Source of the DNA: Clostridiales bacterium
Lineage (GTDB): Bacteria > Bacillota > Limnochordia > Darwinibacteriales > B1SED10-159
Assembly (NCBI GenBank): GCA_003559095.1
Contig: PWMW01000421.1
Span: 1 to 33,570, forward strand
Reading direction: 5' to 3'
Length of the DNA stretch: 33,570 nt
How positions within the stretch are numbered: the stretch's first letter is position 1; every line of letters starts with the position of its first letter. The translations under genes were made by a program, and so were the position numbers. Under the pieces are notes generated by a model. That model was given only the letters and a program-made list of their open reading frames with translations. It ran no database searches and was not told where the DNA came from. Shown here piece after piece: positions 28,243-30,271 of this stretch.

Positions 28243-29529
28243 CTAGGGTGCAAGACGGTGTCGGTCTCTGGGAAACAGGGATGCTTCTCGCACATTGCTG
28301 CGACCAGCCAGAAGAGCCGTCAACCGCTCAAGGCCGATGGCCAACCCGCCATGGGGCGGCATACCATAGCGAAAGCACTCCAGATAGTGTTGGAACGACT
28401 CTGGTGCTAAGCCGCGCTCGTTGATGGCCGCCTGCAGTTGCTGGTGATGGTGAATGCGCTGCCCACCCGTGGTGATCTCCTGTCCGCGGAACAACAGGTC
28501 GAAGCTGGCTGAGCCGCCATCACCTTTGGGCATGGTGTACATAGGGCGTTTGTGCAGCGGATAGTTGGTGATGAACACAAACTCACTCTGCCACTGTTCT
28601 TGGGCATAACGGCCCAGCATACGTTCGGCTTCGGGATCAAGGTCGTCGCTGAGATCCGTGCGCCCATACTCCTGGCGGAGAATGTCCAGGGCTTCGTTCA
28701 TGGTCAGATGCGGAATGGCGTCACCGATGACAGGTAGATCCAGACCCATGGCACCCACCAGGTCTGCCTGGTCTTCTTGCAGCTGGCTGAGTATGAAGCG
28801 CAGCAGCCTGGTCTCCAGGTTCATGATATCGAACTCATTCTCAATAAAGGCCATCTCCAGATCCAAACTGACATATTCGTTGAGGTGCCGCGCGGTGGCA
28901 TGGCGCTCCGCACGGTAGACATGACCCACTTCGTAGACTCGCTCAAAACCAGCTCCAACCAAGGTCTGCTTGTAAAACTGCGGACTCTGGGCCAGGAACG
29001 CTTTCCGTTCGAAATACTGCAGAGCAAATAATTCCGTGCCACCTTCTGTGCCTCCGGCCACCAACTTGGGAGTAAAGACCTGCAAAAACCCCTCCGCATC
29101 CAGGAACGTTTGAAAACCTCGAACGAGGGCGCTTTGCAGGCGAAACAGCCGCTGGTTGCTGGAATGGCGCAAACTGAGAGAGCGGTGGTTGAGCTGGGTA
29201 TCCATGCAGGCCGACAACTGGGGAGTATTGAGCTGTAGGGGCAGAGGCTCGGCTGTGTTCAATTGTTCAATGGACTCACACCAAACCTCAAAACCCCCTG
29301 GGGCCCGGGGATCTTCCACGACTCGACCACTGATGTGCACAACACTCTCTGTGGTCAGGTCCAAGTCCTTGAGGATATCATTGTCAACGACCACCTGCAC
29401 AGTACCGGTGCGGTCCCGAAGTAATATGAAGTTCACCTGACCGAGGCTGCGGATCCGCTCAACCCAACCCATGAGGTTGATCGAGGCGTCCTTCCAACGG
29501 CCGATCTCTTGTACATACACACGTGACAT
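28243..29529 (-). CDS. aspS: Archaeal-type aspartyl-tRNA synthetase (likely non-discriminating)
   Basis: This class II synthetase of 428 residues is the short archaeal-type AspRS (AspRS2), lacking the bacterial insertion domain. The N-terminal OB fold (INLMGWVERIRSLGQVNF) binds the anticodon. The catalytic core has GGTEGGTELFALQYF, AFLAQSPQFYKQ, VYRAERHATARHLNE (motif 2) and GGLAIGLERLTALL (motif 3). In the anticodon domain Pro77 (RAPGGFEVW) lies where, by memory alignment, non-discriminating enzymes have Pro and discriminating archaeal ones Lys. It may therefore charge both tRNA(Asp) and tRNA(Asn), with the Asn identity made later by GatCAB, which is not in this window. ATG 29529 follows GGGGGAG. 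A T-box leader with an Asn-type specifier lies upstream. Confidence 0.93.
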   Translation of the reverse strand: MSRVYVQEIGRWKDASINLMGWVERIRSLGQVNFILLRDRTGTVQVVVDNDILKDLDLTTESVVHISGRVVEDPRAPGGFEVWCESIEQLNTAEPLPLQLNTPQLSACMDTQLNHRSLSLRHSSNQRLFRLQSALVRGFQTFLDAEGFLQVFTPKLVAGGTEGGTELFALQYFERKAFLAQSPQFYKQTLVGAGFERVYEVGHVYRAERHATARHLNEYVSLDLEMAFIENEFDIMNLETRLLRFILSQLQEDQADLVGAMGLDLPVIGDAIPHLTMNEALDILRQEYGRTDLSDDLDPEAERMLGRYAQEQWQSEFVFITNYPLHKRPMYTMPKGDGGSASFDLLFRGQEITTGGQRIHHHQQLQAAINERGLAPESFQHYLECFRYGMPPHGGLAIGLERLTALLAGRSNVREASLFPRDRHRLAP

Positions 29530-29575
29530 GGTACTCCCCCTTTGAAGTGGTTCTTCTGCGGCTGTAACGGACGAC

Positions 29576-29606
29576 AAAAACCCCCGGCGCATAGTGCGCC
29601 AGGGGC
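29576..29606 (-). terminator. T-box terminator 2
   Basis: On the minus strand CCCCTGGCGC and GCGCCGGGGG form a stem with a five-base loop, followed by TTTTT. It lies about 47 bases ahead of the synthetase start and just after the second T-box sequence. Confidence 0.87.
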
Positions 29607-29682
29607 GAATAGATCGCGGTGCCACCCTGATTAACTCCTCTTGCTGCGGCGGTTGGTCCACGAAGGTGCGAAAAGGGTATAC

Positions 29683-29717
29683 AAAAAAGCTCTCGTCCGC
29701 CTTGGGACGAAAGCTTT
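29683..29717 (-). terminator. T-box terminator 1
   Basis: On the minus strand a 13-bp stem (29705-29717 with 29686-29698, one mismatch) is followed by a run of six T residues. Uncharged tRNA bound to the first T-box sequence would prevent this hairpin from forming. Confidence 0.85.
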
Positions 29718-29933
29718 CGTGGTGCCACCCAAATTAACCCCGTGAGGAGTTCACTCTAGCCCGGATAACGGCGGGGCCCGGCGGCCTTTTTCATGGGGCC
29801 GCAGCTTCGGGGTGTTCTTCGATCTTGGGCTCTCATCGGGCTCCCACCGTCCCCGATTCGCTGTGCAGTTACGCCAAGAACTACTCTCCCCTGCATCGCT
29901 GCTGCGTAGTGGATGTCGCTGTTAATACTGACA

Positions 29934-29963
29934 ATTAAAACACGTAGCGTGTTTGACTGTCAA
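29934..29963 (-). promoter_or_regulatory. Promoter of the T-box leader with a palindrome in the spacer
   Basis: TTGACA (29958-29963), an 18-base spacer and TTTAAT (29934-29939) form a good sigma-A promoter. A perfect inverted repeat, AAACACG-TAG-CGTGTTT (29938-29954), fills the spacer, overlapping the edge of the -10 box. This could be an additional operator above the T-box control. Confidence 0.72.
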
Positions 29964-30025: not shown

Positions 30026-30271
30026 CGCAGAGAGTCCGCAGAGAGCCGCCGCACTGATGGAGGCCACAGCGGAAAGCCCCAGCGGAGGACATCAGCCGGG
30101 AATCAGCGCGGGTGAGGATGGCGGCGAAACATGGCGGAGCATGAGGGGCGAGTATCACGGCGGAGACCCAAGGTGGAGAATCAAGGTGAGATCCAAAGCG
30201 GGAAGTCATGGCAAAGTACCAGGGCGAAGAACCAGAGCGGAGACCCAAGGCGAAGAACCAAGGCGAAGAAC
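30026..30271. repeat. Degenerate 13-bp tandem repeat array
   Basis: About nineteen consecutive units of 13 bp (one of 12) are seen, with a consensus close to CAAGGCGGAGAAC. The last two, at 30246-30258 and 30259-30271, are identical, and divergence grows toward the 5-prime end. The period is not a multiple of three, so open frames here (for example 29913-30398 on plus) are by-products and have no ribosome site. The array lies between the T-box promoter and an exported hydrolase gene. Confidence 0.8.

Follow-up and report, generated by a model that had tools for sequence, protein, structure and literature searches.

A class of T-box leaders with duplicated terminator–antiterminator elements was reportedly announced in the abstract of Vitreschak et al. 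2008. The canonical transcriptional T-box (Rfam CM RF00230) and the leader described here share Stem I, a specifier, a T-box bulge and an antiterminator/terminator switch; the canonical form has one module, whereas our leader adds a second module that lacks a separate Stem III 5′ arm. Fully tandem T-boxes (PMC12452182, PMC9413887) resemble our leader in placing two serial terminators under the same tRNA, with an expected digital or cooperative response, but they have a separate sensor for each gate, while our leader has one sensor for both. The name “partially tandem T-boxes” was given to a class (Suddala & Zhang 2020, PMC7583486) in which, as here, one Stem I is followed by two discriminator/terminator modules; the available part of that review lists their mode of action as unknown in 2020. 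Because this class is already in the literature, the architecture is known in kind. In the same part of the review, Stem III is described as a portion of the discriminator that is required for its tRNA binding, with the antiterminator alone hardly binding tRNA, and the discriminator motif is given as RRRxG–Stem III–AA. Our leader controls an aspartate–tRNA(Asn) ligase, and two of its features, a Stem III arm shared by both modules and a proposed exchange of Stem III for an alternative helix, Stem III′, are outside the description of the class in the available part of PMC7583486. What appears to be new is this shared and exchangeable Stem III.

The double leader and its conservation

The window (the whole 33 570-nt stretch of DNA that was analyzed) carries on its minus strand, upstream of the aspartate–tRNA(Asn) ligase gene, a leader with one Stem I and two T-box/terminator modules; all leader, promoter and gene features given below are on the minus strand. 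The leader promoter, recognized from its sequence, has a −35 box TTGACA (29958..29963) and a −10 box TTTAAT (29934..29939), and most orthologous leaders also show TTGACA followed by TTTAAT ∼17–18 nt downstream. The ligase gene (28246..29529) is preceded by a Shine–Dalgarno region, AAAGGGGGAG (29534..29543), and encodes 428 aa of the non-discriminating AspRS type, scoring 560 bits with NF003483 and 435 bits with TIGR00458, both of which exceed the cut-off. Intergenic positions 30159–30271, upstream of the leader promoter, hold a degenerate 13-nt tandem repeat, GGCGAAGAACCAA (8.8 copies, 70% matches).

The original prediction of one Stem I serving two T-box/terminator modules under tRNA(Asn) was borne out, with a single RF00230 Stem I, two T-boxes and two terminators. 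The full RF00230 match (29905–29700; 104 bits, E = 3.8e-22, against a gathering score of 93 bits) takes in Stem I, the Stem II region, Stem III and antiterminator 1 (29700..29905) and ends at module 1. A permissive threshold yields a second match at 29632–29601, and because nothing but model positions 183–216, at the 3′ end, is matched again, we conclude that the window leader has one Stem I. The count of one RF00230 match per leader extends from the window to 15 further leaders of the order and to 12 other leaders tested. The specifier AAC (29814..29816; context GAA-G-AAC-A-CC), located by the cmscan alignment, fits both the tRNA-Asn of the same genome (anticodon GTT, end G-CCA) and the ligase encoded downstream, and the TGGC of both T-box 1 and T-box 2 is complementary to the GCCA end of this tRNA, which agrees with tRNA(Asn) as the ligand.

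Module 1 is ordered GAGTG, AACTCC, loop, GGGGTT, AA, T-box 1. The single purine string GAGTG (29752..29756), identified by the RRRxG motif of PMC7583486, lies 5′ of Stem III; then come the Stem III 5′ arm and loop start common to both modules, AACTCCTC (29744..29751), the local Stem III 3′ arm GGGGTT (29736..29741) with AA at 29735–29734, T-box 1, GGGTGGCACCACG (29718..29730), and the hairpin and T-run of terminator 1 (29683..29717). Module 2, which supplies no 5′ arm for Stem III, is ordered as a second Stem III 3′ arm, GAGGAGTT (29633..29640; complementary to 29751–29744), AA at 29632–29631 and T-box 2, GGGTGGCACCGCG (29615..29627), and the hairpin and T-run of terminator 2 occupy 29576..29606. 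The motif GTTAAT, earlier noted before both T-boxes as a sign of module duplication, proves to combine the final bases of the Stem III 3′ arm with the conserved AA of the discriminator, and the duplicated piece comprises the Stem III 3′ arm, AA, antiterminator and terminator, to the exclusion of Stem I, the purine string and the Stem III 5′ arm. The two T-boxes are 103 nt apart, and the 55 nt between the first T-run and T-box 2 leave, as foreseen, no room for another Stem I. Both terminators are predicted to be strong, the orthologous leader L003 also has two good ones, and the terminator 2 hairpin leaves out the ribosome site. Judged by its sequence, the element is best explained as a partially tandem T-box riboswitch that would act on transcription, and on the same grounds its architecture of one sensor and two gates is certain.

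A ligase search of 61 related genomes traced the leader to two families, both in the order of the window. Two modules are present in each of the 18 orthologous leaders of these families that are readable (the ortholog L002, whose leader is cut by a contig end, stands outside the 18), so that chance occurrence of the double module is rejected by conservation; the more distant ortholog L019, within the class, has one module. The T-boxes are 80 nt apart in L003 and 59–67 nt apart in the sister family, where T-run 1 and T-box 2 are separated by ∼20 nt. The conserved AA at −5,−4 before T-box 2 is present in 17 of the 18, and a second purine string was found in module 2 of none of the 18 order leaders and never in the linker. 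Comparison with orthologous leaders, proposed originally as a check, upholds the double module in the window’s own family: the two modules are conserved there, and each terminator of L001 and L003 looks good. It is upheld less fully in the sister family. Five sister-family leaders (L005, L006, L009, L016, and L018) have a weak or interrupted terminator 2 U-tract just upstream of the Shine–Dalgarno site, and their gate 2 may have a different mode of action. The first T-box of L006 and L008 is degraded: it keeps TGGC and loses the ACC of the bulge (GGGTGGCTGCAGT, GGGTGGCATTCAT), and terminator 1 retains its hairpin and T-run. Given such degraded first T-boxes and weak second U-tracts, the gates are perhaps unequal, with one dominant in some species. 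The genome that contains the window has about 18 RF00230 matches (L031–L048), and the window leader is the only one of them at which a second T-box turned up in a motif search.

An alternative helix, Stem III′

The window segment AACTCCTC, made up of the Stem III 5′ arm and adjoining loop, is perfectly complementary to GAGGAGTT, giving the 8-bp helix that we call Stem III′, and all 18 order leaders have this pairing between the arm preceding T-box 2 and the 5′ arm plus loop of Stem III. The two modules have diverged, and this pairing has been kept. When pairing partners were permuted among leaders, own partners averaged −15.0 kcal/mol as compared to −11.5 kcal/mol for swapped ones, and no permutation of 5000 was as good (P < 1/5000). 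A plain MAFFT alignment pairs 88.4% of the Stem III′ cells, a figure that falls to 32–46% when the partner is slid by 1–3 columns, and contains nine double-change cells, with a covariation score matched by none of 500 shuffles. Much of the covariation, by a bulge-aware count on pairs fitted to the helix, falls at loop positions of the local Stem III (e.g. G–C to C–G, U–A to C–G, and A–U to G–C); since these positions are loop in the local Stem III, the covarying pairs there are not a by-product of duplication.

Shuffling the second arm against the Stem III 5′ arm gave a mean z of −3.86 for the leaders of the order; for 82 distinct double leaders from outside it the mean was −1.52, and two control regions gave z about 0 (P about 1e-10). 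A dinucleotide-shuffle test with wide arms is weak outside the order (mean z −0.8), and narrower arms give a clear signal; the triple leaders of Paenibacillus scored poorly in the automated Stem III′ test. The second arm prefers the Stem III 5′ arm to anything in its own linker in 18 of 18 order leaders and in 74 of 83 leaders.

Each of the 18 leaders is more stable, by ∼4–16 kcal/mol, in the structure that contains Stem III′ than in the one that does not, and in progressive folds Stem III′ appears once the transcript reaches 7–9 nt before T-box 2. Folds that include T-box 2 often pair it with T-box 1; RNAalifold, applied to the whole alignment in folds that contain no tRNA, prefers this pairing and lacks Stem III′, and applied to the sister family with T-box 2 left out, it finds Stem III′. 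The Rfam T-box model, built without the idea of Stem III′, aligns to module 2 in five leaders, with module 1 inserted: L006, L008, and L018 (judged by hit length) and the Clostridium leaders L127 and L164, in whose alignments the arm preceding T-box 2 is drawn as the partner of the Stem III 5′ arm.

Double and triple leaders outside the order

We searched GTDB genomes for a pattern of two T-boxes with a T-run between them and obtained at least 118 matching stretches; some of the matches listed, in other phyla, are clearly not T-boxes, and the scan therefore supplies examples, not a census. The matches listed include dozens of other Firmicutes leaders with double modules, some triple, among them sodium/solute symporter leaders of Negativicutes and Clostridium and neurotransmitter-type transporter leaders of Paenibacillus with three modules. 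The same ligase, 42–45% identical, has double leaders in Clostridium (L127, L145, and L164) with the same AAC specifier. An even sample of the phylum gave matches in 12 of 399 genomes (∼3%), as compared to 5 of 399 for a reversed control pattern. The original prediction that such duplicated modules are much rarer than full tandem T-boxes is only partly right and overstates the rarity, given the ∼3% of sampled genomes, the dozens of Firmicutes leaders and a class already in the literature. Both modules carry the same T-box variable base in 79 of 83 leaders, whereas permutation gave 65 on average and 73 at most.

Two further forms were observed. Transporter leaders at L061 (4429–4616), L129, L144, and L150, from Paenibacillus where named, have three T-box/terminator modules. 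Inspection by eye shows the arm TCTTCAC repeated before modules 2 and 3 of triple leaders, so that a single 5′ arm of Stem III could be enough for all three gates. In L057 (5231–5302) and other Negativicutes symporter leaders, the T-box itself seems to form terminator 1, pairing GGGTGGTACC with GGGTGCCACCC before the T-run; because the T-box itself pairs in this hairpin, the terminator would hide it once formed.

A proposed tRNA relay and its rivals

We propose that the single Stem I captures tRNA-Asn and that two serial discriminator/terminator gates would read its charging state. At gate 1, the discriminator would use the local Stem III (AACUCC/GGGGUU). Once polymerase had moved past terminator 1, the new arm GAGGAGUU would invade Stem III and form Stem III′ (AACUCCUC/GAGGAGUU), looping out module 1; T-box 2 would now stand, as T-box 1 did, five nucleotides behind a Stem III, and gate 2 would test the tRNA still bound to Stem I a second time. 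With uncharged tRNA needed at both gates, the leader would act as a serial AND that raises the ligase only under firm Asn-tRNA shortage, and leak through the two terminators would multiply because both gates must be passed. A serial AND-like readout is most likely the logic of the double leader, and Stem III exchange would give it a physical route. On the evidence of pairing, covariation, and folding, we consider it probable that strand exchange in Stem III passes the tRNA, still bound by Stem I, on from the first gate to the second; the response of gate 2 to charging and the exchange with tRNA bound are putative parts of the relay that we infer. Counting against the relay, a tRNA that stabilizes antiterminator 1 and the local Stem III could slow the exchange. 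The RNAalifold result on the whole alignment, the folds that pair the two T-boxes, the degraded first T-boxes and weak second U-tracts, and the poor scores of the triple Paenibacillus leaders also weigh on this side.

Gate 1 might instead be the only one to sense tRNA, module 2 being vestigial or serving as a constitutive attenuator to trim expression. This would suit the terminator 2 U-tracts that are weak or interrupted in several leaders of the sister family, and also the poor tRNA binding of an antiterminator without Stem III (reported in the available part of PMC7583486), but it sits badly with a T-box 2, AA, and arm that are conserved at least as well as those of module 1, with the covariation of Stem III′, and with the fact that the degraded T-box in L006 and L008 is T-box 1; we judge it unlikely. 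In another reading, to which we assign a low probability, the second arm complements Stem III only as a functionless leftover of duplication, both gates using some other contact: module 2 does carry a duplicate 3′ arm of Stem III, and such a copy matches the 5′ arm from the outset, yet Stem III′ reaches into the local Stem III loop with compensatory changes, its state is the more stable in all 18 leaders, and the pairing was maintained although the modules diverged.

The weak U-tracts of several sister-family leaders also bear on a translational gate 2, in which, for part of the group, a hairpin just upstream of the Shine–Dalgarno site would hinder initiation rather than cause termination; the ribosome site does lie within ∼10–20 nt, but it is not part of the hairpin, and the window and L003 have a good terminator 2 hairpin with T-run, making this reading improbable. 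A fully tandem T-box, in which the Stem I of a second complete T-box had been overlooked, is rejected and keeps a negligible probability, there being no second Stem I, a single RF00230 match per leader, and too little room between the modules (T-run 1 to T-box 2, 55 nt in the window and ∼20 nt in the sister family).

For the relay by Stem III exchange, a conserved alternative Stem III would provide a concrete, mutation-testable answer to how partially tandem T-boxes act, and would show how one sensor can drive several gates; if true, the relay would be a compact design for low-leak RNA switches. Extended to partially tandem T-boxes in general, the relay is somewhat more likely than not: one 5′ arm and purine string would be re-used by successive 3′ arms, the tRNA held by a single Stem I being passed from gate to gate as transcription proceeds. 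If this general relay is true, these leaders would carry out RNA proofreading by programmed strand exchange.
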